Source: Kocuria rosea subsp. polaris (lineage in GTDB: Bacteria; Actinomycetota; Actinomycetes; Actinomycetales; Micrococcaceae). Taken from it: 58,013 nucleotides of DNA. Positions within the stretch are counted from its first letter, which is position 1, and the number at the start of each line of letters is the position of its first letter. The notes beneath the pieces are model-generated. The model saw only the letters and a program-made list of their open reading frames with translations. It searched no databases and had not been told where the DNA came from. A program made the translations under genes and the position numbers. This document shows positions 1,143 to 13,343 of this stretch, piece by piece. The stretch lies in assembly GCF_001483755.1 (NCBI RefSeq), contig NZ_LQBK01000021.1, forward strand, positions 1-58,013, written 5' to 3'.

Positions 1143-2564
1143 CTACATGAGCAGGGGGCCGTCGAGGGCCGCCCACAGGGCGCCGGCCAGGACGCCCAGC
1201 ACCAGGCTCGCGATCGCGGCGGCCCCGGCGGTGACGGCCGGCCAGGCGGCCGCCCCTCCGCGGCGGGGGAACCCCGCGGCGTCCTGGTCCGGGCGGGCGA
1301 AGACGGGAGCGAACCAGCGCAGGTAGTAGAAGAGGCTGAGCACGCTGTTGAGCACCACCACCAGGGCCAACCAGCCGTGCCCGCCGTCCCAGGCCGCGGT
1401 GGCGGTGGTGAGCTTGCCGACGAACACGGCCAGCGGCGGGGTCCCCACCAGTCCCAGCAGCGCCACGAGCAGCGCCAGCCCCAGGCCCGGGCGGGAACGG
1501 GCCAGGCCCCGGTAGGCGGCCAGCTCCCGGTGCCCGGGCAGCGCGGCGGTCACGGCGAACGCGGCGACGTTGGTGACGGCGTAGGCGGCGAGGTAGAACA
1601 GCAGCGAGGGCAGGGCCAGGTCGCTGCGCCCGGCCGCGGCCACGGGCACGAGCAGGAACCCGACCTGGGCCACCGTGGACCAGCCCAGCAGCCGGCGGGG
1701 GTCGGTCTGCCAGTAGGCCGCGAGGTTGCCCAGGAGCATCGAGGCCGTGGCGAGCAGCGCCGCGACGAGCAGCCAGGAGCCGTCCCCGGCGGAGACCGCG
1801 GCCACGAGCCGGTACACGGCCACCAGCGCCCCCACCTTGGGCACGGTGGTGAGGAACGTGGCGGCGGTGGCCCCGGTGCCCTGGGCGGCGTCGGGCACCC
1901 AGAAGTGGAAGGGCACCCCGCCGGCCTTGAAGAGCAGTCCGGCGAGCACGCCCAGCACGCCCGCGCCCACGGCCGCTGCCGGGGCGGCGGGCAGCTCCTC
2001 CTGGAGCAGGGCGTAGTCGGTGCCGCCGGCCAGGGCGTAGAGCACGGTGACCCCGAGCATGAGCAGGATCCCGGACAGCGCCCCCATGAGGTAGGTCTTC
2101 ATGGCGGCCTCCGCCCCGGCGCGGCCGCCCGTGAGGCCGACGATCCCGTACAGGGGAATGCTGGCCAGCAGGAACCCCACGACCAGCACGAGCAGGTCGG
2201 TGGCCCCGGCCAGGACCATCACCCCGGTGGTGGTGAGGAGCAGCAGCGCACACGTGTCCGACTCCCGCGGGGACCCGGCGATCTCCCCGGAGGCCACGCC
2301 CAGGATCAGCAGAGTGGTCAGGGCGGCGATCACCCGGGCGGCCCCGGTGGCGGTGTCCACGGCGAAGGTGCCGCTGAAGGCGCTCTGCGCGGGACCGGCC
2401 ATGGCGAGGGCGGCCAGGAGCGCGGCGCCCAGCAGGGCCAGGGCCGCCGCGGCGCGGGCGATCCACTGCCGGTCGCGGGGCAGGAAGGATCCGCCCAGCA
2501 GCACCACCAGCGCGCCGAGGAAGACGACGATCTCGGGCAGCAGCAGCTCGGGGCGCATCTGCAT
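1143..2564 (-). CDS. nuoN: NuoN-like antiporter subunit of a reduced complex I operon
   Basis: This 473-residue polytopic protein belongs to the NuoL/M/N antiporter family and aligns by eye with NuoN (FKAGGVPFHFWVPDA stretch, then a TTVPKVGAL helix). I chose the ATG at 2564 because a GGAGG lies just upstream; a GTG at 2576 is also possible. Normal NuoN has a glutamate in TM5 within a pattern like LELxSI. Here the equivalent stretch reads FLLASIPLY, so that proton-pathway glutamate appears to be lost, while the lysine of FKAGG remains. It is the last gene of the minus-strand operon nuoA-B'-H-J-K-L-M-N and starts about 16 bp after nuoM. Membrane-arm function is inferred; pumping competence is uncertain. 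Confidence 0.85.
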   Translation of the reverse strand: MQMRPELLLPEIVVFLGALVVLLGGSFLPRDRQWIARAAAALALLGAALLAALAMAGPAQSAFSGTFAVDTATGAARVIAALTTLLILGVASGEIAGSPRESDTCALLLLTTTGVMVLAGATDLLVLVVGFLLASIPLYGIVGLTGGRAGAEAAMKTYLMGALSGILLMLGVTVLYALAGGTDYALLQEELPAAPAAAVGAGVLGVLAGLLFKAGGVPFHFWVPDAAQGTGATAATFLTTVPKVGALVAVYRLVAAVSAGDGSWLLVAALLATASMLLGNLAAYWQTDPRRLLGWSTVAQVGFLLVPVAAAGRSDLALPSLLFYLAAYAVTNVAAFAVTAALPGHRELAAYRGLARSRPGLGLALLVALLGLVGTPPLAVFVGKLTTATAAWDGGHGWLALVVVLNSVLSLFYYLRWFAPVFARPDQDAAGFPRRGGAAAWPAVTAGAAAIASLVLGVLAGALWAALDGPLLM

Positions 2565-2579
2565 CGAGGCCTCCACCGG

Positions 2580-4076
2580 CTACCGTCCCACCAGGCTCAC
2601 GAGGGCGGCCGAGGCCGGCTCGATCACCTCGAGCAGCACCCGGGGCAGCACGCCGATGAGCAGGGACAGCGCCAGCAGGGGGCCGGCGGACCACAGCTCC
2701 GGCGCCCGGAGGTCCTCGAACCCGGGGGTGTGCCCGGCCGCGGGGCCGGTGAAGACCCGCTGCAGCGCCCGCAGGAACAGCGCGGCGGTGACCAGGATGC
2801 CCAGCAGGGCCACCGCGGTGACCGGGGCGACCGCCACGCTGCCGGCGAAGATCTGGAACTCGGCGATGAACCCGGAGAACCCGGGCAGGCCCAGGGAGGC
2901 GAAGGCCCCCACCGCGAACAGCGCCGCGTAGCGCGGGGCGGGAGCGGCCAGCCCGCCGTAGGAGCCCATGTCGTAGGTGCCGGCCCGGTCCTGCATCACC
3001 CCGGCGAGCAGGAACAGGGCGGCCGTGATCAGCCCGTGGCTGACCATCTGCACCACCGCGCCGGTGACCGCCACGGAACGGGCCTGGGCGGCGTCCTCGG
3101 CGAGGAGCCCGGCCGCGCCCAGGGCCAGGACGATGTAGCCCATGTGGTTAACGGAGGTGTAGGCGATCATCCGCTTGAGGTCCGTCTGGGCCAGAGCCAC
3201 GAACGCCCCGTAGAGCACCGAGACGACGCCGACGGCCACGATCACCCAGGCCCACGCCCGCCACGCCTCCGGCAGGATCGGCATGGCGATGCGCACGAAC
3301 CCGTAGGTGCCCATCTTCAGCAGCACGCCCGCCAGCACGGCCGAGCCGGTGGCCGGGGCGTCGGTGTGCGCCGGGGGGAGCCAGGTGTGGAACGGCACGG
3401 TGGGGGTCTTCACGGCCAGGCCCACCAGGATCGCCGCGAGCACCAGCCCGCCGGTGAGCGGGTCGCCCGCCAGGGGCGCCGCCGCGACGAGCTCGGGGAT
3501 GTCGAAGGTGTGCGGCGCCGCCGCCACGTAGAGCCCGATGAAGCCCAGCAGCAGGGCCAGGGAGCCCAGGAAGGTGTAGAGGAAGAACTTCAGCGCCGAC
3601 CGGGCCGCGTTGCCGTGGCCCCATCCGGCGATCACGAAGTACATGCCCACGATGGACAGGTCGAAGAAGACGAAGAACAGGATGAGGTCGGCCGCCACGA
3701 ACACCCCGAGGCTCACACCCTGCAGGAACAGGAACAGCGCCGCCTGCACGCGCGGGCGGTCCGCGTCCCGCAGGGCGTGGACGGCGCAGGCCAGGAACAC
3801 CACGGCCGTCATGGCCAGCAGCGGCAGGGAGAGCCCGTCCACGCCCACGTGGTAGCTGCTGCTGACGCCGGGGATCCACGGGACCTGCTCCTCGAACGCC
3901 AGCCCGTTGGGCCCCGGGTCCTCGTAGCCGGCCCACAGCACGCCCACCAGCAGCAGCTCCACGACGCTCACCGCCACCCACGTCCATCGGGCGGCCGCGG
4001 GCCCGATCGCGGGGACCACAGCCAGGACGGCGGCGGCCAGCAGGGGCAGGAAGACGATCAGGCTCAGCATGCTCAT
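2580..4076 (-). CDS. nuoM: NuoM-like antiporter subunit
   Basis: The 498-residue multipass protein matches NuoM. It contains VKTPTVPFHTWLPPAHT with the conserved lysine and HTWLP, and VNHMGYIVLAL farther on. The ATG overlaps the nuoL stop codon (ATGA), so the two are translationally coupled. The helix that normally carries the essential TM5 glutamate (FFxFFEA in canonical NuoM) reads FFVFFDLS here, with aspartate instead. The charge is kept but the side chain is shorter. The protein would sit in the cytoplasmic membrane as one of three antiporter-like modules. There is no soluble NADH-oxidising arm in the operon. Confidence 0.88.
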   Translation of the reverse strand: MSMLSLIVFLPLLAAAVLAVVPAIGPAAARWTWVAVSVVELLLVGVLWAGYEDPGPNGLAFEEQVPWIPGVSSSYHVGVDGLSLPLLAMTAVVFLACAVHALRDADRPRVQAALFLFLQGVSLGVFVAADLILFFVFFDLSIVGMYFVIAGWGHGNAARSALKFFLYTFLGSLALLLGFIGLYVAAAPHTFDIPELVAAAPLAGDPLTGGLVLAAILVGLAVKTPTVPFHTWLPPAHTDAPATGSAVLAGVLLKMGTYGFVRIAMPILPEAWRAWAWVIVAVGVVSVLYGAFVALAQTDLKRMIAYTSVNHMGYIVLALGAAGLLAEDAAQARSVAVTGAVVQMVSHGLITAALFLLAGVMQDRAGTYDMGSYGGLAAPAPRYAALFAVGAFASLGLPGFSGFIAEFQIFAGSVAVAPVTAVALLGILVTAALFLRALQRVFTGPAAGHTPGFEDLRAPELWSAGPLLALSLLIGVLPRVLLEVIEPASAALVSLVGR

Positions 4077-5983
4077 CCCAACACGGCGTAGACGGACCAG
4101 GCCATGACGCCGACGGCGAGCACCGCGACGGCCTGGAGGAAGTACTGGTGGACGGCCCCGGTCTGCGGGGCCCGGGCCAGCTGCCCGAGCCGGCGGACCC
4201 GGCCGGCGAAGCCCTCGACGGCGCCGTCCACGACGTCGTCGTCGATGCGGGCCGCGCCCCGGCCGGCCGCGGAGGCGGCGTGCGCGGTGACGTCGACCCC
4301 CGCGTCGAGGACCCGGTCGTCGAACCGGGCCGCGGCCCGGGCCAGTCCCGGGACGGCGCCGGCTGCGGCGGTCACGGCACGGTCCAGGACGCGGTCGTCG
4401 AACCGGGCCAGCGCGTGCGCCAGGCCCAGCGCGGGGCGGACGACGACGGCGTGCGCGGCGGCCTCCAGCCCCAGCCACCGCACGGCCCAGCCCGGCTCGG
4501 GGGCGCGCAGGCGCAGCATCAGCAGCAGGACCACCAGGGCGAGAGCGGCCGAGACGAGCAGCTCGGCGGGCGCCACCGCACCGTGCCCGCCCAGGGCCCC
4601 GGCGAGCGTCCGGCTGACCGGGGGCAGGGCCAGGGCCCCCAGCACGGCCGCCCCGGCCGCGAGCACGACCAGCGGGGCCTGCTCCAGCGCGCCCACGCGC
4701 CCAGTGCCGCCGGGCTCCGCCTCGGCGCGGGCACCGCGGCGCCAGACGGTCCACAGGACCTTCCCCGCGTAGGCGGCGGACAGGGCCGCCGCCACGAGCC
4801 CCGCGGCGTAGAGCAGGCCCGAGACCTCGAGGGCCCCGGCCAGCACCGCGTCCTTGGTGGCCCACAGGGACAGCGGGGCGATCCCGGCCAGGGCCAGCGC
4901 CCCCACGGTGGCGGTCATGCCCACCACCCGCCACCGGCGGCCGGCCCCGCGCAGCGCCGTGAGCTCCTCGGTGCCCAGCGCCGTCAGCCACGCCCCGGCG
5001 GCCAGGAACAGCAGGGCCTTGGTGGAGGCGTGGGCCACCAGGTGCGCCGCGCCGCCGCTGACCGCGCCCACCCCGGCGGCCAGCACCACGAAGCCCAGCT
5101 GCGCCACCGTGGACGCCGCCAGCAGCTGCTTGAGCTCCCGCTGGGCCAGTGCCACGATCCCCATCAGCACCGCGGTGACCACCCCGGCCCACGCGGCGGC
5201 CGGGCCCGCCCACCCGGTGGAGGCCAGCAGCGGCTCCACGCGCAGCAGCAGGTAGCCGCCCATGGCCACCATGGCCGCCGAGTGCAGCAGTGCGCTCACC
5301 GGGCTGGGACCCTTCATCGCCCCGGAGAGCCAGAACGAGAACGGCAGCTGCGCCGCCTTGCCCAGCGCCGCCACCAGGATCCCGGCCGCGATCACGTGCC
5401 GCCACGGGCTCTCGGCGCCCGGCAGGGCGGACAGGGCCATTCCGGCGCCGCCGGCCAGGGCGGCGCCGGCGGCGACGTAGAGCCCCAGGTCCGCGGTGCG
5501 GGTCGTGACGAAGGCCGTGAGCCCGGCCGAGACGCGATCGGCGTCCCGCCACCAGAACCCGATCAGGGCGTAGGAGGTCGCGCCCATCAGCTCCCACGCG
5601 AACAGCAGCGCCGGCAGGCTCGCGGCCGTGACCGTGGCCAGGGCGGCGGCGGCGAAGACCAGCATCAGCCCGTGGAAGCGCGGCCGTGCCGCCCGGATGC
5701 TGCCGGCCGCGAAGACCAGGACCAGCAGCGTCACCCCCGCGACCATCGGGAGGGTCAGCGCCGCGAGGGCGTCGACCTCCAGCGCGAACTCGGCGCCGGC
5801 CACGAACGGGACGGACAGGGCTGGCCGGGCCAGGGCGGCGACGGCGGCGAGCACCGTGGTCACCGCGGCGGTGAGCACCGCGACCGGGGCCGCGGCCCGC
5901 TCCGCCCGGGTGAGGGCGAGCACTGCCCCCACGGTGGCCGGGAGCAGCAGCACGGCCGGCAGCACGGCCTGGGCCGCGGTCAT
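4073..5983 (-). CDS. nuoL: NuoL-like antiporter subunit with C-terminal lateral helix
   Basis: The 636-residue protein has the NuoL/MrpA core (FAWELMGATSYALIGFWW with the TM5 glutamate; GKAAQLPFSFWLSGAMKGPSP with the lysine). A long C-terminal extension contains two repeated FDDRVLDxxV-type segments and a last TM (AVAVLAVGVMAWSVYAVLG), consistent with the NuoL lateral helix and anchor. The start is the ATG at 5983, which overlaps the nuoK stop as ATGA. Canonical NuoL reads DAMEGPTPVSAL, whereas this protein has GAMKGPSPVSAL, an acidic-to-basic change typical of divergent complex I relatives. It is predicted to be an ion-translocating subunit in the plasma membrane. Confidence 0.88.
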   Translation of the reverse strand: MTAAQAVLPAVLLLPATVGAVLALTRAERAAAPVAVLTAAVTTVLAAVAALARPALSVPFVAGAEFALEVDALAALTLPMVAGVTLLVLVFAAGSIRAARPRFHGLMLVFAAAALATVTAASLPALLFAWELMGATSYALIGFWWRDADRVSAGLTAFVTTRTADLGLYVAAGAALAGGAGMALSALPGAESPWRHVIAAGILVAALGKAAQLPFSFWLSGAMKGPSPVSALLHSAAMVAMGGYLLLRVEPLLASTGWAGPAAAWAGVVTAVLMGIVALAQRELKQLLAASTVAQLGFVVLAAGVGAVSGGAAHLVAHASTKALLFLAAGAWLTALGTEELTALRGAGRRWRVVGMTATVGALALAGIAPLSLWATKDAVLAGALEVSGLLYAAGLVAAALSAAYAGKVLWTVWRRGARAEAEPGGTGRVGALEQAPLVVLAAGAAVLGALALPPVSRTLAGALGGHGAVAPAELLVSAALALVVLLLMLRLRAPEPGWAVRWLGLEAAAHAVVVRPALGLAHALARFDDRVLDRAVTAAAGAVPGLARAAARFDDRVLDAGVDVTAHAASAAGRGAARIDDDVVDGAVEGFAGRVRRLGQLARAPQTGAVHQYFLQAVAVLAVGVMAWSVYAVLG

Positions 5984-6282
5984 CGGGCGAGCTCCTCGGC
6001 CATGTCGGTCATGTCGGTCTGCCGCCGGCGGTGCAGCAGCGTGGCCACGGCGAAGCCCATGGCCATCTCCACGGTCATGGCCGCCAGGACCACCAGCAGC
6101 AGCACCTGCCCGGAGGGGTCCGGGGCGAGGAACCACCAGAACCCCGCCGCGGCCAGGAGCACCCCGTTGATCATCAGCTCCAGGCCCATCATCACCATCA
6201 CCACCACCTGTTGGGACAGGGCGCCGTAGAGCCCCACCGCGAACAGCGCGGCGGCCACGACCAGCACGGCTTCCAGGGTCAT
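5980..6282 (-). CDS. nuoK: NuoK-like membrane subunit
   Basis: This 100-residue protein has three transmembrane helices. It keeps both membrane-embedded glutamates known from NuoK: GLELMING in helix 2 and MTVEMAMG in helix 3. Length and topology match the family (about 100 residues). It overlaps both nuoJ and nuoL by 4 bp (ATGA junctions), so translation is coupled. Its conserved acidic residues contrast with the losses in the NuoN, NuoH and NuoB-like proteins. This suggests that the E-channel ion path is still under selection. Confidence 0.9.
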   Translation of the reverse strand: MTLEAVLVVAAALFAVGLYGALSQQVVVMVMMGLELMINGVLLAAAGFWWFLAPDPSGQVLLLVVLAAMTVEMAMGFAVATLLHRRRQTDMTDMAEELAR

Positions 6283-6842
6283 CGGCCCACACCGCCCGGC
6301 TGGGGGTCGTCCGCCGGGCGGCGGCGCAGGTCGTCACCGAACCGGTCGTAGCGGGTGCGGTGGGCGGCCAGGACCACCCCGGCCACGATGGTCGCCACCA
6401 TCACCGGCCCCACCACGGCCATCACCAGCATCTTCTCGCCCATGATCTCCAGGCCCAGTGCGTGCGTGAGGTCCTCGGGCGGGGCGCCGCGCCGCTGCGG
6501 CCACGGGATCAGCAGGGCACCGGCGGCCAGCAGCACGAAGACCCCGGCCGAGGCGCCGATCGCGGTCTTCTTCCCGTGGGTCATGTCCATGGGCATCAGT
6601 GCGGGGTTCATGCCCATGAACATCACCATGTAGACGGCCATCACCGCCATCTCCATCACCATCATGAGGATCGTGATGATCCCGAGGTAGCTCTGGCCCA
6701 GTAGCAGGATCTGCACGCCCACGGCGATGAAGGACAGTGCCAGGGCGTAGGTGGCCCGGGCCATGGAGTCCACCACGAACACGAGCGCCCCCGCGGCCAC
6801 GGCCACCACGGCGAGCACCCAGAACACGATTCCGACCAGCAC
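6279..6842 (-). CDS. nuoJ: NuoJ-like membrane subunit
   Basis: The 187-residue protein starts at a GTG 3 bp after the nuoH stop and has about five transmembrane helices. The region LGQSYLGIITILMMVMEMAVMAVYMVMF corresponds to the conserved third helix of NuoJ, although it is unusually methionine-rich. The C-terminal 25 residues are basic and cytoplasmic. In complex I NuoJ lies between NuoA, NuoK and NuoH. Operon position and topology support the call more strongly than sequence identity. Confidence 0.82.
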   Translation of the reverse strand: MLVGIVFWVLAVVAVAAGALVFVVDSMARATYALALSFIAVGVQILLLGQSYLGIITILMMVMEMAVMAVYMVMFMGMNPALMPMDMTHGKKTAIGASAGVFVLLAAGALLIPWPQRRGAPPEDLTHALGLEIMGEKMLVMAVVGPVMVATIVAGVVLAAHRTRYDRFGDDLRRRPADDPQPGGVGR

Positions 6843-6845
6843 GGC

Positions 6846-7781
6846 TCAGCCCTTCCAGACGACGACGAGGGACACGACCAGGTCCTGGAGCACGGCGGCC
6901 GGGAGCAGGACCATCCACCCGATCTCCATGAACCGGTCCGGGCGCAGCAGCGGGAGCTTCCGCCGCAGCCACACGAGCACCGCCAGCACCAGGGTGGTCT
7001 TCACCAGGACCCACGCCCAGCCGGGCAGGACCGGCCCGGCGCCACCGCCGAGGAAGAGCGGCACCGAGAAGGCGGCGCCGGCGGTCAGGAACAGGTAGCG
7101 CCCGGCCTGCAGCACGAGGCGGTCGACCCCCGAGAGCTCGGCCAGCACGCCGCCGCCGATGTCGGCGGCCAGTGCCGGGGCGAAGGGCCCCCACACGGAG
7201 AAGCCCGTCACGCCGATGAGGAAGACGAGGAAGGCGACCGGCATCCAGACCACGAACCACAGTCCGTCCTGCGCGGCCGCGACGTCCCCCACGGCCAGGC
7301 TGCCGGCGGCGATCGCCGGGGCCACCAACGCGAACATCAGGGGCAGCTCGTAGGCCAGCCCGTGCGCCAGGAAACGGTAGCCGCCCACCAGGCCGTGGGC
7401 GGAGTTCGCGCCCCAGCCGGCCAGCCAGACCAGCGCCCAGACCATGACGTCCACGGTGTTGAACCACACGACGCCGACGTCCAGGTCCGCCAGCGTCCAC
7501 CGGTCCAGCGGGAGCACCGCGATCATCAGGAACGCCCCGACCAGCATGCCCGCCCCGCCGACCCGCCACAGCAAGGTGTCCGCGGCCACGGTGGTCCGGC
7601 GCCGCTGCCGCAGCAGCCGCGCCGCGCGGCTCACCGGCGCGCCCCACCCGCCGCCGGTGCCCTGGGCGCGGGCCGAGAGCGCCGCGTCCAGGGCCACGGC
7701 GAAGAAGGCCAGGCCGCACAGGAGGATCCCCGCCAGCACGGCCCATCCGCCGGGGACGGTCGTCACCACGCTCTCAGCCAT
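6846..7781 (-). CDS. nuoH: NuoH-like subunit with altered quinone loop
   Basis: The 311-residue polytopic protein aligns with NuoH through GWGANSAHGLVGGYRFLAHG (canonical GWxSNNKYxxxGGLRxxAQ) and YELPL. Canonical NuoH then has a strongly acidic loop ([20 protein letters not shown]) near the quinone site. The equivalent here is FAPALAADIGGGVLAELSG, so most of those glutamates are gone. The start ATG at 7781 overlaps the preceding NuoB-like gene by 8 bp. The protein probably anchors the membrane arm to the small NuoB-like subunit, but normal quinone reduction looks doubtful. Confidence 0.82.
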   Translation of the reverse strand: MAESVVTTVPGGWAVLAGILLCGLAFFAVALDAALSARAQGTGGGWGAPVSRAARLLRQRRRTTVAADTLLWRVGGAGMLVGAFLMIAVLPLDRWTLADLDVGVVWFNTVDVMVWALVWLAGWGANSAHGLVGGYRFLAHGLAYELPLMFALVAPAIAAGSLAVGDVAAAQDGLWFVVWMPVAFLVFLIGVTGFSVWGPFAPALAADIGGGVLAELSGVDRLVLQAGRYLFLTAGAAFSVPLFLGGGAGPVLPGWAWVLVKTTLVLAVLVWLRRKLPLLRPDRFMEIGWMVLLPAAVLQDLVVSLVVVWKG

Positions 7782-8979
7782 GCCCCACCGCCTGGACGGC
7801 AGGATGCGGCTCGAGGTCCAGGCTCGCCACGGCCAGCCGGACGGAGGCCAGCTCCAGCCCGGTCACCAGGTCCGGCAGCACCGCCCACGGCACCGCGCCG
7901 TCGTCCTCCCGGGCCGGTTGCGCCACTGCGGCCGGCTCCGCGCCACCGGCCTCGGCCCGGATCCGTTCCACCCGGGACAGCAGCCGGTCGTGGGCGTCCC
8001 CGAGGCAGTGCCGCGGCAGCTCGTGGCGCTCCAGAGCGGGCGGGCCGAGCGGGAGCACGCTCCGCAGCGACCAGTGGAGCAGCCGCGATCTCCGCACCGT
8101 CCGGTGCAGCCGCTCGACGGCGTCCCGGGCGGCGCCCCGATCGCCGTGCAGGAGGGCGTCCCGGGTGCGCCGGGCGCAGGCCGCCGCGTCCTCGGCCCCG
8201 GCCAGGGCCAGCAGCGCCATGACCTGGTCGCACCCCACCACCGCAGCAGGTGCGGGACCGGGGTGCGGCCCGGCCGCTGCGGCGCCGTCGTCCTGGGTGT
8301 TGTTCCGGCCGTCGACCACGGAGGCCTCGGCCTCCACCACGACATCCCCCTGCAGGGTGCAGCGCAGCACGAGCCCGGCCGGCCAGAACGGCAGCACGGG
8401 ACCGAGCGGCAGACGGAGCACGTCCATCTCCAGCCCGTCACGGTCCTCTCCGCCCTCGGCCAGGGGGATTCCCCCCGGGGCCATGTCCATCTCGCCGTGG
8501 TCCATGCCGTCATGACCGCCGTGGTCCATCTCGCCGTGGTCCATCTCGCCGTGGTCCATCTCGCCGTGGTCCATCTCGCCGTGGTCCATGCCCCCGTGGC
8601 CCCCATGATCCACGTCGTCGGGGATCTCGGGCTCCTGCGGCCGCTCGCGGGCGTCCGCCCGGTGGTGCGGGGTGTCGAGCAGCAGCGCTGCGGCGTCGTC
8701 GAGGGCTGGTCCCACCCCTCCCGGCGAGGTGATGTCGGCGCGGACCCGAGGACCGGGCATCTGCTCCCAGAGCCGGTCCGCGAGCTCCGAGAGCTCGGGA
8801 CCGGGCGTGCCACACACCGCGAGAACGTCCGCGTCCGCTGGTGCCCAGGCCAGCCGCCACCCGCGGCGGAGCATCTGCTGCTCCAGCTCCATGCGCGCGT
8901 CCCAGTGCCCCGGGACCTCGACGACGAGGACCTGCGCGGCCCGGACCGCGAAGCGGGCGAGGAGTTCGTTCAGGCCCAT
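7774..8979 (-). CDS. Degenerate NuoB-like protein with His-rich repeat and possible NuoD-like tail
   Basis: The 401-residue soluble protein occupies the nuoB position, directly after nuoA and before nuoH. Residues 40-85 resemble NuoB: a GW-W-PADADVLAVCGTPGPEL segment followed by LWEQMPGPRV, like NuoB ADLMVVxGT..YDQMPEPRW. The adjacent Cys-Cys pair and the later cysteines that hold cluster N2 are absent; the five cysteines are scattered. Residues 123-166 are a His/Met/Asp-rich repeat (MDHGE units). Residues 185-220 (LPLGPVLP..., GDVVVEAEA) weakly recall the start of NuoD, and the C-terminus is helical and Arg-rich. It may be a metal-free docking subunit fused from NuoB and NuoD remnants; that origin is inference. 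The gene overlaps nuoA by 10 bp. Confidence 0.6.
   Translation of the reverse strand: MGLNELLARFAVRAAQVLVVEVPGHWDARMELEQQMLRRGWRLAWAPADADVLAVCGTPGPELSELADRLWEQMPGPRVRADITSPGGVGPALDDAAALLLDTPHHRADARERPQEPEIPDDVDHGGHGGMDHGEMDHGEMDHGEMDHGEMDHGGHDGMDHGEMDMAPGGIPLAEGGEDRDGLEMDVLRLPLGPVLPFWPAGLVLRCTLQGDVVVEAEASVVDGRNNTQDDGAAAAGPHPGPAPAAVVGCDQVMALLALAGAEDAAACARRTRDALLHGDRGAARDAVERLHRTVRRSRLLHWSLRSVLPLGPPALERHELPRHCLGDAHDRLLSRVERIRAEAGGAEPAAVAQPAREDDGAVPWAVLPDLVTGLELASVRLAVASLDLEPHPAVQAVGHG
8521..8580. repeat. Four exact tandem copies of a 15-bp unit inside the NuoB-like gene
   Basis: The sequence gtggtccatctcgcc occurs four times back to back with no mismatch, flanked by partial copies at 8486-8520 and 8581-8600. 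It encodes the MDHGE repeat on the minus strand. Because the unit is a multiple of three, copy number can change without breaking the frame. Confidence 0.95.
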
Positions 8980-9314
8980 CGGAAGGCTCCTTCCCGCCAG
9001 GCCCAGGCCACGGCGACGAGCAGGGCTCCGAGGAACAGGAACATCTCCACCACCGCGGAGATCCCCTTCTCGATCACCACCACCGCCCACGGATACATGA
9101 AGAGCATCTCGACGTCGAAGGCCAGGAACACGATCGAGGCGAGGTACCAGCGGGCGTGGAACCGGGACAGCGCGTGCTCCTGGGGCATCCACCCGGACTG
9201 AGCGGGCAGCGCCGTCAGCGGGGCGGCCGCGACAGTGGCAGCGCGGTGAAGTGCGTAGAGAAGGACGACGAGGGACAGTGCCACCAGGGCCATCGCCACG
9301 ATCCCGGAATACAT
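8970..9314 (-). CDS. nuoA: NuoA-like membrane subunit
   Basis: This 114-residue protein has three transmembrane helices. It keeps the NuoA signature region FHARWYLASIVFLAFDVEML followed by FMYPWAVV, including the conserved acidic residues of helix 2. It is the first gene of the eight-gene minus-strand operon and overlaps the NuoB-like gene by 10 bp. The upstream gap (9315-9479) has no other gene. With NuoH, J, K, L, M and N it would complete a membrane arm. Confidence 0.9.
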   Translation of the reverse strand: MYSGIVAMALVALSLVVLLYALHRAATVAAAPLTALPAQSGWMPQEHALSRFHARWYLASIVFLAFDVEMLFMYPWAVVVIEKGISAVVEMFLFLGALLVAVAWAWREGAFRWA

Positions 9315-9479: not shown

Positions 9480-9887
9480 TCAGCCCAGTGCGGCGAGAAG
9501 GTCGGCACAGGCCTGCTCGCAACGGCGGCAGGCCTCGGCGCAGACCTTGCAGTGCTCGTGCATGCTCGCGTGCTGCTCGCACTCGTCGCCGCAGGCCTTG
9601 CACGCGGCGCGGCACGCCTCCAGCGCCGCCCGGGTGACCTCCACGTTGTTGCCGGTCTGACGCGAGAGCACGTTGCCGGTGGAGGCGCAGACGTCGGCGC
9701 AGTCGAGGTTCTTGCGGATGCAGGTGGTCAGCTCCGCGACCTTGTCCTCGGCCAGGCAGGCGTCGGCGCAGGCGGTGCAGGTCTGGGCACACTCGAAGCA
9801 GGCGGCGATGCACCCGGCCAGCTTCTGCCGGTCGATGTTCCCCAGCTCCTTCGGGTAGGTCTCCAGCATCGAGGTCACATGCGTCAT
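9480..9887 (-). CDS. Four-helix-bundle copper-storage protein (Csp family, DUF326-like)
   Basis: The 135-residue cytosolic-looking protein contains 18 cysteines, mostly spaced CxxC or CxxxC along helices (CIAACFECAQTCTACADAC near the N-terminus; a second cluster near the C-terminus). It has no signal peptide. This pattern is the hallmark of Csp proteins, in which cysteines line the core of a four-helix bundle and bind many Cu(I) ions. The ATG has an AAGGAG ribosome-binding site. It is divergent from the zinc ABC operon and ends at a strong hairpin. The promoter region holds a GGACCGG/CCGGTCC inverted repeat at 9921-9940 and a CAGT-AG-ACTG palindrome at 9954-9963, either of which could be a metal-sensor site. 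Confidence 0.88.
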   Translation of the reverse strand: MTHVTSMLETYPKELGNIDRQKLAGCIAACFECAQTCTACADACLAEDKVAELTTCIRKNLDCADVCASTGNVLSRQTGNNVEVTRAALEACRAACKACGDECEQHASMHEHCKVCAEACRRCEQACADLLAALG

Positions 9888-10010: not shown

Positions 10011-10110
10011 CCCGCGTCACGGGCCGGAGCGGGGTGACGGGGCCGTGCCCCCGCCTCCATCGGCGACAGGCTGTTCGCCCTGCCGAGCCCGACCTCGCTC
10101 CGCACGCCGA

Positions 10111-10150
10111 ATTGACCACCGTTCTCATTGGATTGAGAATGGGTCTCATG
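10111..10150 (+). promoter_or_regulatory. Leaderless promoter with Zur-type operator for znuC
   Basis: TTGACC (10112-10117) is followed after 17 bp by GAGAAT (10135-10140), and the ATG comes 7 nt later (10148). A 15-bp imperfect palindrome TGAGAATGGGTCTCA (10134-10148) covers the -10, the expected start point and the A of the ATG. An upstream TTCTCA/TGAGAA pair (10122-10139) adds a second overlapping site. The same arrangement recurs before znuA. Confidence 0.7.
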
Positions 10151-10969
10151 AAAATTTCCTCCGCCCCGCCGGTCGCCGCCCCGGAGGACCGCGCGGCGAT
10201 CCGCACCGAGGACCTCACGGTGGTCCTCGGCGCCGCTCCCGTGCTGCGCGGGGTGGACCTGACCGTGGCCGACGGCGAGGCCGTGGCCCTGATGGGCGGC
10301 AACGGATCCGGGAAGTCGACCCTGCTCAAGGCTCTGCTCGGCATCGTGCCCGTCGCCTCCGGCGAGGCCCGGCTGTTCGGCGCCGACGTCACCGGCGCGC
10401 GCCGGCACGTGCCGTGGTCGCGCGTCGGGTACGTCCCCCAGCGCGTCGGCGTCGGCGCCGGGGTGCCGGCCACCGCGCTCGAGGTCGTCGCCTCGGGGCT
10501 GACGGGGCACCGCCGGCTGCGCCCGGGCGCCGGCGCCCGGCGCGTGTGCCTCGACGCCCTTGAGCAGGTCGGGCTGGCCGACCGGGCCCGCGAGAGCGTG
10601 GCCATCTTCTCCGGCGGTCAGCAGCAGCGGGTGCTGATCGCCCGGGCCCTGGTGCGGCAGCCCCGGCTGCTGCTGCTGGACGAGCCCCTCTCCGGGGTGG
10701 ACCAGGTCTCCAAGGAGGCCATCGCCCGCATCCTGGCGCAGCTCCAGGCCGGTGGCACCACGCTGCTGGTCGTGCTGCACGAGCTGGGCGAACTGGCCCC
10801 CCTGCTGGACCGCGCCGTGGTGCTGCGCCACGGGCGCATCGTGCACGATGGCAGCCCCCCGCTGCCGGCTCCGGGCCACGACGCCCCCGACCACGAGCAC
10901 CTGCACCCCCACGGGGATGCGCCCGCCGCCGTCCCGGCAGCTCCCGACCTCCACGGAAAGCCGCAGTGA
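10148..10969 (+). CDS. znuC: Zinc-type ABC transporter ATP-binding protein
   Basis: The 273-residue ATPase has Walker A GGNGSGKST (about residues 50-58), the ABC signature FSGGQQQR, Walker B LLLLDEP and the H-loop VLHE. The C-terminus is His/Asp-rich (HDAPDHEHLHPHGD), often seen in zinc or manganese importers. I chose ATG 10148 because the promoter -10 ends 7 nt before it and there is no ribosome-binding site, which indicates a leaderless message; an in-frame ATG at 10139 lies within the -10. Its stop overlaps the permease GTG. With the permease and the lipoprotein at 12.3 kb it forms a high-affinity metal importer. Zinc is inferred from the regulator and the His-rich binding protein. Confidence 0.85.
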   Translation: MKISSAPPVAAPEDRAAIRTEDLTVVLGAAPVLRGVDLTVADGEAVALMGGNGSGKSTLLKALLGIVPVASGEARLFGADVTGARRHVPWSRVGYVPQRVGVGAGVPATALEVVASGLTGHRRLRPGAGARRVCLDALEQVGLADRARESVAIFSGGQQQRVLIARALVRQPRLLLLDEPLSGVDQVSKEAIARILAQLQAGGTTLLVVLHELGELAPLLDRAVVLRHGRIVHDGSPPLPAPGHDAPDHEHLHPHGDAPAAVPAAPDLHGKPQ

Positions 10970-11889
10970 CCATGATCGACACCCTCACCGCCATGCTGGC
11001 CAGTCCACTGATGCAGCGCGGTCTGCTGATCGCCGCCCTGGTGGGGATCTCCGCGCCGGTGATCGGCACCTACCTCGTGCAGCGGCGCCTGGCCCTGCTC
11101 GGTGACGGCATCGGCCACGTGGCCCTGACCGGCGTGGCCATGGGCTGGCTGGCCGGCTCCGCGGCCGGGCTGACCTCGCGCGACGCGCTGGCCGTTCCCG
11201 GGGCGGTCGTCGCGGCCGTCGTCGGCGCGGTGCTCATCGAGGTGATGCGCACCAAGGGGCGCACCAGCGGGGACGTGGCCCTGGCCCTGCTGTTCTACGG
11301 CGGCATCGCCGGCGGCGTCCTGCTGATCGGGATCGCCGGCGGCACCTCGGCCAATCTCACCGGGTACCTCTTCGGGTCCATCGCCACCGTCACGCCCCTG
11401 GACGTGTGGCTCACCGCCGGGCTGGCGGCGGTGGTCCTCGGTGTGGGGCTCGGCCTGCGCCCGGCCCTGTTCTCCCTGTGCCACGACGAGGAGTTCGCCC
11501 TCGCCACCGGGCTGCCGGTGCGGTTCCTGAACATCCTGGTGGCCGTCATGGCCGCTCTGACCGTCTCCGTGTCGATGCGCGTGGTCGGCGTCCTCCTGGT
11601 CTCGGCCGTGATGATCGTCCCGGTGGCCGTCGCCCAGCTGGTCACCCGGTCCTTCGCCGGCACCATGGGGGTGGCCATGGCCGTGGGGGTCGGGGTCTGC
11701 GTGACCGGCCTGTCCGTCACCTACTTCTACCCGTTGTCCCCCGGGGCGACGATCGTGGTGCTGGCCATCGCCTGCTACGTGCTCACCCTGCTCGTCCGCC
11801 CCCTCGTGGGCGGCACCCGGCGCCACGGTGCCCACGGCGCGGACCGTTTGCACGACGCCGAGGACGACCTGCAACTTCGAGGAGCATGA
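10966..11889 (+). CDS. znuB: Zinc-type ABC transporter permease (ABC-3 family)
   Basis: The 307-residue protein has eight or nine hydrophobic segments and the ABC-3 family landmarks GDGIGHVALTGVAMGWL near the N-terminus and MRVVGVLLVSAVMIVPVAVA farther on. The GTG at 10966 overlaps the znuC stop (GTGA); an ATG 6 nt later is an alternative. Its own stop overlaps the ATG of the regulator gene (ATGA). It forms the membrane channel for the metal importer. Confidence 0.88.
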   Translation: MTMIDTLTAMLASPLMQRGLLIAALVGISAPVIGTYLVQRRLALLGDGIGHVALTGVAMGWLAGSAAGLTSRDALAVPGAVVAAVVGAVLIEVMRTKGRTSGDVALALLFYGGIAGGVLLIGIAGGTSANLTGYLFGSIATVTPLDVWLTAGLAAVVLGVGLGLRPALFSLCHDEEFALATGLPVRFLNILVAVMAALTVSVSMRVVGVLLVSAVMIVPVAVAQLVTRSFAGTMGVAMAVGVGVCVTGLSVTYFYPLSPGATIVVLAIACYVLTLLVRPLVGGTRRHGAHGADRLHDAEDDLQLRGA

Positions 11890-12281
11890 CCATGTCCCGG
11901 ACCACCCGGCAGCGCTCCGCCCTGGCCGAGCTGCTCGCGCGGACCCCGGAGTTCCGCTCCGCCCAGCAGATCCACGCGATGCTGGGGGAGGAGGGGGAGC
12001 CCGTCTCCCTCGCCACCGTCTACCGCAACCTCAACGCCCTCGCCGAGAACGGGGAGGTGGACGTGCTCGCCACCGAGGGCGGCGAGAGCAGGTACCGCCG
12101 GTGCGTGCGCACCGAGCACCACCACCACCTGGTGTGCCGCCGCTGCGGGCACACCGTGGAGGTCGCCGAGACGTCGGTCGAGCGGTGGGCCGCCCGGACC
12201 GCCCGACGGCACGGGTTCTCGGAGGTCTCCCACGAGATCGAGCTCCACGGCATCTGCGACACCTGCCGACGCGGCTCCTGA
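11886..12281 (+). CDS. zur: Fur-family metal regulator, probably Zur
   Basis: This 131-residue protein has the Fur winged helix (SAQQIHAMLGEEGEPVSLATVYRNLNALAENG) followed by the metal-sensing part. That part carries EHHHHLVCRRCGH with one CxxC and HGICDTCRRG with the second, the pair that forms the structural zinc site. Gene context (coupled to the ABC permease, next to a zinc-binding lipoprotein) favours Zur over Fur. It would bind the TGAGAA-type operators at 10.13 kb and 12.33 kb when zinc is replete, repressing both uptake transcripts and its own synthesis. It starts at the ATG overlapping the znuB stop. Confidence 0.88.
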   Translation: MTMSRTTRQRSALAELLARTPEFRSAQQIHAMLGEEGEPVSLATVYRNLNALAENGEVDVLATEGGESRYRRCVRTEHHHHLVCRRCGHTVEVAETSVERWAARTARRHGFSEVSHEIELHGICDTCRRGS

Positions 12282-12301
12282 GCCGGCCGGCCCGGAGCGT
12301 T

Positions 12302-12341
12302 TTGACAACGATTCTCGATTTGTCTGAGAATTGTTCTCATG
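12302..12341 (+). promoter_or_regulatory. Leaderless promoter with Zur-type operator for znuA
   Basis: TTGACA (12302-12307), an 18-bp spacer and GAGAAT (12326-12331) are followed by the ATG 7 nt later (12339). The palindrome TGAGAATTGTTCTCA (12325-12339) covers the -10, the start point and the first base of the ATG. An overlapping ATTCTC/GAGAAT pair lies at 12311-12331. Layout is nearly identical to the znuC promoter. Confidence 0.75.
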
Positions 12342-13343
12342 AACCTCTCGCGCGGCCTCGCCGTCCCGTTGTCCCTGATCGCCGCTCTCGCGCTGTCCTC
12401 CTGCGCCACCGGCTCGGCTGATCCCGCTGCCACGGCCGGGGGCTCGGGCGGGACGCTGGACGTGCAGGCCTCCTTCTACCCGCTGCAGTACGTCACCGAG
12501 CGCGTCGGCGGGGACCACGTGCAGGTGGAGTCGCTGACCCCCGCCGGGGCCGAGCCGCACGACCTGGAGCTGTCCCCGGCCGCCGTCGACGGACTGCGCA
12601 CCGCGGACGCGGTGGTGTTCCTCTCCGGGTTCCAGCCGGCGGTCGACGACGCCGTGGCCCAGGCCGCCCCCGAGCACGTCCTCGACGCGGTGCATGCCGG
12701 CGTGGAGGGCGAGGAGGCGCACTCGGCCGAGGAGCACGAGGGGGCCGGGTCGTCCCACGGCGGAGAGGCCCACGGCGACGACGCCCCTGCCGAGGAGGGC
12801 GCCGGCGACGACTGGCACGGCCACGCGGGAGAGGACCCGCACTTCTGGCTGGACCCCGAGCGGCTGGCCGCGGTGGCCACGGAGGTCGCCCACGAGCTGG
12901 CCGCGGTCGACCCGGACAACGCGGCGGCCTACGAGTCCAACGCCGAGCAGCTGACCACGGAGCTGGACGCCCTGGACCAGGAGTTCACCGAGGGCCTGGC
13001 CACCTGCGAGCGGGACACCATCGTGGTCTCCCACGACGCCTACGGCTACCTGGCCGACAAGTACGACCTCGAGCAGGTGTCCGTGGCCGGGTTCGAGCCC
13101 GACACCGAGCCCTCCCCGGCCCGCCTGGCCGAGATCGGCGAGGTCGTCGAGGCCGAGGGCGTCACCACGGTGTTCTCGGAGTCCACGGTCAACCCGAAGG
13201 TCGCCGAGACCCTCGCGGCCGAGCACGGGATCGAGACGGCGGTGCTGGACCCGGTGGAGGGCCAGGTCGACGGAGACGCCGACTACCAGCAGGTCATGCG
13301 CACCAATCTCGAGGCCCTGCGCACCGCGCTGGACTGCGCCTAG
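12339..13343 (+). CDS. znuA: Zinc ABC transporter substrate-binding lipoprotein
   Basis: The 334-residue protein begins with a lipoprotein signal peptide (LALSSCATG lipobox, cysteine near residue 24). It has the cluster A-I metal-binding fold: EPHDLELSP, the His/Asp/Glu-rich loop at about residues 115-165 with HGHAGEDPHFWLDP, VVSHDAYGYLADKY and FSESTVNPKVAETLA. The three histidines plus the loop indicate zinc capture. The His-rich loop is characteristic of ZnuA rather than of manganese proteins. It is transcribed separately from znuCB-zur, with its own operator. Confidence 0.9.
   Translation: MNLSRGLAVPLSLIAALALSSCATGSADPAATAGGSGGTLDVQASFYPLQYVTERVGGDHVQVESLTPAGAEPHDLELSPAAVDGLRTADAVVFLSGFQPAVDDAVAQAAPEHVLDAVHAGVEGEEAHSAEEHEGAGSSHGGEAHGDDAPAEEGAGDDWHGHAGEDPHFWLDPERLAAVATEVAHELAAVDPDNAAAYESNAEQLTTELDALDQEFTEGLATCERDTIVVSHDAYGYLADKYDLEQVSVAGFEPDTEPSPARLAEIGEVVEAEGVTTVFSESTVNPKVAETLAAEHGIETAVLDPVEGQVDGDADYQQVMRTNLEALRTALDCA

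Follow-up and report, generated by a model that had tools for sequence, protein, structure and literature searches.

A complex I-like operon with a NuoB-NuoD fusion and a methionine ladder, possibly a heavy-metal pump, in Actinomycetota and Pseudomonadota

A "partial NDH-1 operon" has been reported from Salinispora, Streptomyces and Kocuria, and the passages that deal with it present it as part of a proton-pumping NADH dehydrogenase for marine or osmotic adaptation (PMC3314556, PMC4018334, PMC6002675, PMC6676996). The order nuoA-hypothetical-nuoHJKLMN is stated in the relevant passage of PMC6676996, and that of PMC6002675 names Kocuria flava S43 as a carrier. From Marinobacter atlanticus, the pertinent section of PMC8233155 describes NuoADHJKL genes that lie within a copper operon and are expressed together with its copper resistance genes; the set was reported without nuoM and nuoN, and was explained by a copper-redox pump or by a need for redox cofactors. 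A passage on nuo genes in a paper on copper in Acidithiobacillus concerns their methylation. Here we analyze an eight-gene nuo operon on a 58,013 bp stretch of Kocuria rosea subsp. polaris DNA (contig NZ_LQBK01000021.1 of assembly GCF_001483755.1, the whole stretch being referred to as "the window"). Its second gene encodes a fusion of NuoB with NuoD (NuoBD). On the sequence evidence set out below, we lean, by a narrow measure, toward a complex I-derived, proton-driven exporter that would carry Cu(I) from the cytoplasm to the outside.

The operon occupies positions 9314 to 1143 of the minus strand in the order nuoA-NuoBD-H-J-K-L-M-N, with neighboring genes overlapping or 3 bases apart. A preliminary description of the window had placed the eight genes in the same way, and its coordinates and tight coupling are borne out. 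Pfam names seven of the eight: nuoA (9314-8970; PF00507, E 6.7e-22), nuoH (7781-6846; PF00146, E 1.2e-41), nuoJ (6842-6279; PF00499, E 2.7e-10), nuoK (6282-5980; PF00420, E 1.5e-13), nuoL (5983-4073; PF00361, E 5.9e-45), nuoM (4076-2580; in NCBIfam also TIGR01972 at 483.7 bits, cut-off 263.8) and nuoN (2576-1143; PF00361, E 1.6e-48). NuoBD (8979-7774, 401 aa) had nothing over the cut-off in Pfam and no NCBIfam match; a GGDEF_2 match (E 0.0078) was below the cut-off and was taken as chance. Pairwise ratios of nonsynonymous to synonymous substitution rates (dN/dS) against four relatives are 0.02-0.32 for all eight genes. On these values and the invariant residues described below, degeneration or a pseudogene was rejected; the operon is genuine and intact, and it evolves under purifying selection.

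A model search of the whole window genome (3.83 Mb, 42 contigs, completeness 100%) found no PF01058 NuoB, no PF00346 NuoD and no PF01512 NuoF, so the earlier reading of an arm without its normal partners was not overturned. No gene for NuoC, NuoE, NuoG or NuoI is present in the operon, the genome-wide search having covered only NuoB, NuoD and NuoF. Four further PF00361 genes lie away from the operon in two pairs and, judged by this pairing, are probably of Mrp type.

A scan of 84,980 species returned 108 places, of which 80 were kept; with the window these make 81 loci. Genes were called with a codon-usage model that missed NuoBD in some loci, and NuoBD was taken as the open reading frame between nuoA and nuoH (78 of 81 loci). 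nuoH, nuoJ, nuoK and nuoL were called in 80 loci each, and nuoA, nuoM, nuoN and NuoBD in 78 each, with uncalled genes mostly at loci cut by a contig end. Order and strand are constant across the 81 loci, two of which are from Lysobacter. Among 274 genomes of Lysobacter's class, 13 had a match: Lysobacter, nine genomes with ten further operons (nuoK was uncalled in two of these operons), and three candidates that proved false, with no operon (L124-L126). A search across Pseudomonadota, in which 347 of 398 genomes matched, mostly through HMBD domains or ordinary NuoB/NuoD among the matches listed, added seven operons checked at the DNA level, for 17 pseudomonadotal operons in all. One other match, G1069, looks genuine by its matched stretch alone and is outside these seven. 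The gene order, whose conservation across Micrococcales the preliminary description had proposed to check, has a much wider range: the operon spans Actinomycetota and Pseudomonadota.

The "NuoB-like" gene is a NuoB-NuoD fusion with a shortened NuoD. A NuoB-fold domain (aa 1-113) is followed by a linker and a NuoD-fold domain (about aa 180-395), with folds taken from AlphaFold2 and Foldseek/VIA and the N-domain also run alone. A hidden Markov model comparison with PDB matched NuoB (E 1.7e-4) and the 49 kDa subunit (E 0.017). Profile-profile comparison with references of at most five rows gave a moderate match for NuoB (79%, E 1.5e-5) and a weak one for NuoD (probability 16%, E 0.0016). PF00346 was over its cut-off in all seven proteobacterial NuoBD relatives scanned, and the NuoD part in the window's species is too diverged for this model. 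The claim that nuoC to nuoG and nuoI are absent therefore stands in part: none occurs as a gene of its own in the operon and NuoF is missing genome-wide, but a shortened NuoD persists, fused to the NuoB-like domain. The C-domain has about 215 residues, versus 432-441 for NuoD in three canonical rows.

NuoB of respiratory complex I needs four cysteine ligands for cluster N2. In the 76 aligned NuoBD rows (two shorter than 300 aa were dropped), 74 N-domains have one to three cysteines and two have four, and only C56 is conserved (75/76); the ten proteobacterial N-domains have none or one. Neither the four-cysteine N2 ligand set nor the quinone-head histidine region of NuoD is found in NuoBD. The canonical NuoD motif GPQHPSTHG reads GPVLPFWPAG, and the two head histidines align to positions 196 (Leu in 74/76) and 200 (Pro in 72/76).

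The linker between the two domains (aa 114-177; 8449-8640, minus strand) carries DHGEM repeats and, from its composition, looks like a metal binder. It belongs to a subunit whose complex I counterpart faces the cytoplasm. His makes up 18% and Met 8% of the linker over the 76 rows; that of the window consists of His/Met repeats in which no Pfam domain was found. HMBD-like motifs (CPMHP...CPKCGM) occur in one to five copies in the linkers of 11 of the 17 pseudomonadotal operons, and the remaining six have a short Met-rich stretch there. Pfam HMBD (PF19335) was over its cut-off in six of seven relatives scanned (E 1.4e-12 to 2.5e-70). Linker histidines also vary with the genes nearby. Their median is 17 in loci with copper-type neighbors versus 8 in those without (p 0.0024), and at least five are found in 44/45 versus 22/31 loci (Fisher p 0.001), although both tests treat relatives as independent and hence overstate the difference.

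The membrane arm was compared at sites that are known to matter in complex I. Residue numbers are those of E. coli by alignment, the window is counted in, and the canonical rows are from E. coli and four genomes carrying both systems. Part of the functionally important sites are named in a passage of PMC3046159. In NuoH, the acidic quinone loop is lost and reads FAPALAADIGGG in the window: D213 is gone and E218 deleted in 80/80 rows, E220 is Asp in 80/80, E216 is not Glu in at least 76/80, and E241 is Arg in 79/80. Proteobacterial-type NuoH keeps D213 in 8/10 rows and E220 in 8/10. NuoN has Leu or Phe for E133 in 78/78 rows (Leu in the window) and Leu or Val in all seven further proteobacterial operons; K217 is replaced by Glu in 17/78 rows, in mycobacteria and Actinomycetospora. 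NuoM has Asp for E144 in all 76 rows with a letter there (of 78), keeps K234 in 77/78, and keeps the other path residues tested. NuoL retains E144, D178, K229, H254, H338, K342 and K399, each in 80/80 rows, with Gln for H334 in 28/80. In NuoK, E36 is kept in 80/80 and E72 is Glu in 78 rows and Asp in two, and the loop residues Arg25/Arg26 are Gln/Gln in 80/80. NuoJ Y59, which we take to be the pi-bulge position, is Met in 80/80.

Among the antiporter-like subunits, NuoL thus has both the Glu of the fifth transmembrane helix (TM5) and the Lys of TM7 in 80/80 rows, NuoM has Asp for Glu, and NuoN has lost the Glu. By their distribution over the relatives, these losses are fixed and are not drift. 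The residues that had been reported by eye as lost (the N2 cysteines, the NuoH loop, the NuoN glutamate), exchanged (NuoM) or kept (NuoK, NuoL) were confirmed by the counts, and the alignments revealed none of the lost ones at shifted positions. The preliminary description was right, in our judgment, to see a conserved, antiporter-like assembly that conducts ions and is uncoupled from the chemistry of NADH and quinone.

NuoJ, NuoK and NuoA flank the E-channel, and transporters of Cu(I)/Ag(I) are characteristically marked by soft Met ligands along their membrane path. The NuoJ of the window has a methionine ladder from M60 to M87 (6582-6665, minus strand), which reads MMVMEMAVMAVYMVMFMGMNPALMPMDM. 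Over a stretch of 36 columns, five canonical NuoJ rows have 3-4 Met versus 11-13 in 14 family rows. We counted columns that hold one residue throughout the family rows (78-80 actinobacterial-type plus 8-10 proteobacterial), with that residue in none of the canonical rows. There are 39 such columns over seven subunits, and 16 of them are Met: ten in NuoJ (27, 60, 61, 65, 68, 72, 76, 85, 87, and 138), four in NuoK beside its two Glu (M29, M31, M69, and M73) and two in NuoA (M70 and M73 in FDVEMLFMYPW, identical in 78 + 10 rows). No Met column of this kind was found in NuoH, NuoL, NuoM or NuoN. NuoJ residues 61, 65, 68, 72, and 76 lie on one side of the helix (mean vector 0.88); adding M60 gives 0.67, a value matched by 2.7% of random six-site sets. 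In the seven operons held out from the counts, all ten NuoJ and both NuoA methionines are kept in 7/7, as are NuoK M29, M69, and M73, with M31 in 5/7. In Mrp, Na+ leaves by a path that coincides with the E-channel, according to the part of the Mrp structure paper that treats it (PMC7419157).

In many loci, the neighborhood of the operon is a copper island. Pfam and NCBIfam named neighbor clusters as copper P-type ATPase, CopM/DUF305, multicopper oxidase, copper_res_A, HMA, F510_1955, DUF1541, and Csp1-like, and a RicR-like regulator of the CsoR family scored 174.7 bits against a cut-off of 175. F510_1955 and DUF1541 are also families with a link to copper. At least one copper-associated cluster is near the operon in 47/81 loci. 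Against genome-wide copy numbers in 49 genomes, the surroundings of 50 loci held 26 DUF305/CopM genes versus 0.77 expected (about 34-fold), 10 multicopper oxidases versus 0.74, and 6 CsoR-type genes versus 0.67. On the plasmid of Arthrobacter sp. FB24, sulfocyanin-like, DUF305, F510_1955 and multicopper oxidase genes are followed, 87 bp on, by nuoA to nuoN. In the window, a gene for a Csp1-like four-helix copper-storage protein (9480-9887, minus strand; PF03860 over its cut-off, TIGR04401 at E 1.7e-7 and below its cut-off) lies 165 bp upstream of nuoA on the same strand; its cluster occurs in 5/81 loci, and the protein is likely an accessory to the operon. Divergent from this gene and nuoA is a zinc-type ATP-binding cassette (ABC) uptake system (10034-13343), with an ATPase, an AztB-like permease, an AztC-like His-rich binding protein, and a Fur-type repressor between them (ATPase and Fur assigned by eye).

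Several other neighbors were seen. An ion-channel protein (PF07885; 213-1088) is convergent with nuoN, and its cluster is near the operon in 11/81 loci. Small conserved genes (clusters 26, 27, and 28) are found next to F510_1955, multicopper oxidase and nuoA, or between these genes, in L035-L037, L044, L047, and L053; two of these clusters were run against NCBIfam and received no name. In two proteobacterial loci, proteins of about 1110 aa are encoded upstream of nuoA (L120:3515-6862 and L121:2624-5956), and the N-terminal half of the L120 protein matches a molybdopterin oxidoreductase, while its C-terminal half matches NifS cysteine desulfurase. A pyridine-nucleotide oxidoreductase-like gene is immediately upstream of nuoA in L121 (6418-7605, assigned by eye) and L123 (10794-11978, a weak TIGR03169 match).

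Transport itself, the metal and its direction are what we infer from these observations. In the Cu(I) exporter reading, the NuoBD linker would take up Cu(I) at the cytoplasmic face, as suggested by its composition and by the metal-binding domains found in its place in relatives. The ion would then enter what was once the quinone cavity, bounded by NuoBD, NuoH and NuoA, and pass along the Met track of NuoA, NuoJ and NuoK, which would occupy the E-channel; the methionines are observed, and the path is proposed. Proton influx through NuoL and NuoM, whose tested path residues are kept (NuoM with Asp for Glu), would meet the cost, with NuoN, lacking its TM5 Glu, as a modified link. The loss of this coupling Glu would fit a site that has ceased to respond, in the old way, to a hard cation or to charge in the E-channel. 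Such proton-paid export would follow the manner proposed for Na+ export in the Mrp paper (PMC7419157, relevant passage). Outside, multicopper oxidase and CopM/DUF305, adjacent in part of the loci, may oxidize or bind the metal. The fuller account, that complex I turned, at a date early enough for both Actinomycetota and Pseudomonadota to have it, into a non-redox heavy-metal pump with a fused copper-capturing subunit derived from the electron-input module, a Met-ladder E-channel and Cu(I) export powered by the proton gradient, is attractive but tentative, and we hold it with not quite even confidence. The fusion, the metal-type linker, the Met ladder and the copper-resistance setting favor a metal-coupled machine over the plain membrane-potential device that the preliminary description had suggested.

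A number of observations weigh against this exporter. No copper-associated cluster was found in the DNA examined at 34/81 loci, and all four Salinispora loci lack such clusters and have short, nearly His-free linkers. The enrichment p-values disregard shared ancestry and the carriage of whole islands. The metal could be another one, because the zinc-type ABC uptake system adjoins the far side of the Csp1-like gene. In NuoBD, a His is present in 26/76 rows at position 198, two residues from one of the lost NuoD histidines. NuoH E157 is kept in 80/80 actinobacterial-type rows and lost in the ten proteobacterial ones, and proteobacterial NuoM mostly retains the TM5 Glu (8/10). NuoK is only modestly Met-rich (median 10.0% versus 1.8-8.1% in canonical rows), the canonical controls for Met columns come from five operons (four for NuoA), at least three canonical control NuoJ/NuoK open reading frames start too far upstream, and the seven held-out operons closely resemble types that were already in the set.

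The leading alternative is an antiporter-like complex that would exchange Na+ (or K+) for H+ under salt or pH stress, with metal bound to NuoBD serving only as a gate or regulator of its activity. We regard it as unlikely, while granting that NuoL, NuoM and NuoK retain the tested proton-path residues, that K+-channel-like genes are near nuoN in 11/81 loci and CPA1-type antiporter genes in five loci, and that marine or osmotic adaptation is proposed for the partial operon in the passages that discuss it (PMC3314556, PMC6002675, PMC6676996, PMC4018334). The 16 invariant soft-ligand methionines of NuoA, NuoJ and NuoK fit Na+ or K+ poorly, however, and the neighbor families enriched among those tested are copper ones. 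The NuoN TM5 Glu, which couples Na+ in the Mrp model as given in that part of PMC7419157, is lost.

Copper chemistry might instead be the driving force, with oxidation or reduction of copper at NuoBD pushing protons out through the membrane arm. This was suggested, in the section at hand, for the similar Marinobacter operon (PMC8233155), and the enrichment of multicopper oxidases nearby agrees with it. NuoBD, however, offers no recognizable electron acceptor site, as the N2 cysteines are gone and both NuoD head histidines replaced; the NuoH quinone loop is gone in the actinobacterial type and partly kept in the proteobacterial type, and the copper oxidases are separate proteins. We consider such a pump improbable.

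The same pump might instead carry a different ion, such as Ag(I), Zn(II) or some other thiophilic one, or might work in uptake; we give this a similarly small chance. HMBD is named merely "heavy metal binding," the window has its zinc-type ABC importer, and a cation diffusion facilitator gene is near the operon in L118. The neighbors that could be named are nevertheless of copper families (RicR-like regulator, CopM, copper P-type ATPase, and copper_res_A), and a track made of Met alone is a better match for Cu(I)/Ag(I) than for Zn(II), as is established in their chemistry.

A decaying remnant, or a spare membrane arm borrowing the peripheral arm of a normal complex I, is scarcely credible: a PF00346 protein also occurs in 35/49 genomes with the operon, and a normal NuoD in 9/9 proteobacterial genomes tested, unlike in the window's genome, but 14 of the 49 and the window's own genome have no PF00346 protein, NuoBD would occupy the docking place, and conservation is strict (dN/dS as above). 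CO2-hydration complexes of the DAB or NDH-1MS type pair antiporter-like subunits with a soluble metal protein. This type was set aside, as the operon has no such soluble partner and relatives carry HMBD; no dedicated search was made.

The operon is present in 38/395 genomes of the window's family and 8/27 of its genus, and is therefore accessory. It was found in 16 plasmid records, of which two were classed as conjugative and nine as mobilizable, with carriers that include Arthrobacter, Rhodococcus and mycobacteria. On one Rhodococcus plasmid it lies between transposases, with no copper gene within the stretch viewed. On plasmids of Mycobacterium avium and M. intracellulare (records H4-H8), nuoBD is annotated as DUF4779 or hypothetical protein. 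Searching proteins with the NuoBD of the window gave 901 relatives, and Kocuria proteins were closest among the best 120 listed. In a 53-row tree, the NuoM sequences of the family and of the proteobacterial operons cluster together, separate from five canonical ones (support 100/97), and the same grouping was recovered with fewer rows for NuoL (97/93) and NuoN (100/97), although several branches are long and some joins may be false according to the program's warning. NuoL, NuoM and NuoN branch with their complex I namesakes, in a tree without Mrp rows. Lysobacter NuoM sits within the actinobacterial group, and the Lysobacter operons were thus likely acquired sideways.

If the operon encodes a metal pump, it would be an overlooked determinant of copper resistance, also on plasmids of Arthrobacter, Rhodococcus and mycobacteria, and a new kind of metal-resistance pump common to many bacteria. 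Needing no ATP and being carried on plasmids, it would complement the copper ATPases. It would also be a natural complex I variant that runs the membrane arm on a metal ion instead of quinone, and would add to quinone/hydrogenase redox chemistry and Na+ antiport a third way of coupling energy in this architecture. Coupling of the E-channel to the antiporter-like subunits could then be tested with a substrate that is countable and visible in structures.

We found no description of the NuoB-NuoD fusion, the HMBD linker, the Met ladder or the pump model in the passages retrieved from the open-licence PMC literature. By its order, nuoA-hypothetical-HJKLMN, the partial NDH-1 operon of Salinispora, Streptomyces and Kocuria is the same operon, and the passages on it (PMC3314556, PMC4018334, PMC6002675, PMC6676996) differ from our account in describing no fusion, metal link or Met ladder. 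The Marinobacter NuoADHJKL set is likened to it by its description in that section of PMC8233155 only. Membrane-bound hydrogenases, MBS and formate hydrogenlyase share, by fold matches, a NuoB/NuoD-type module on a related membrane arm; here, in contrast, the N2-type cysteines are gone and B and D are fused through a metal-type linker. The Mrp Na+/H+ antiporter is likewise non-redox with antiporter-like subunits, and its cation exit path coincides with the E-channel in the part of PMC7419157 cited above, whereas the operon described here has NuoA, NuoH, NuoBD, three antiporter-like subunits and a Met track. Respiratory complex I shares with it the homologs of A, B, D, H, J, K, L, M, and N in the same relative order and the tested proton-path residues of NuoL, NuoM and NuoK. 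Unlike in complex I, B and D are fused and D is shortened, C, E, F, G, and I are not in the operon, the N2 ligands, the quinone loop, the NuoN TM5 Glu and NuoJ Tyr59 are lost, and a methionine ladder has been gained.

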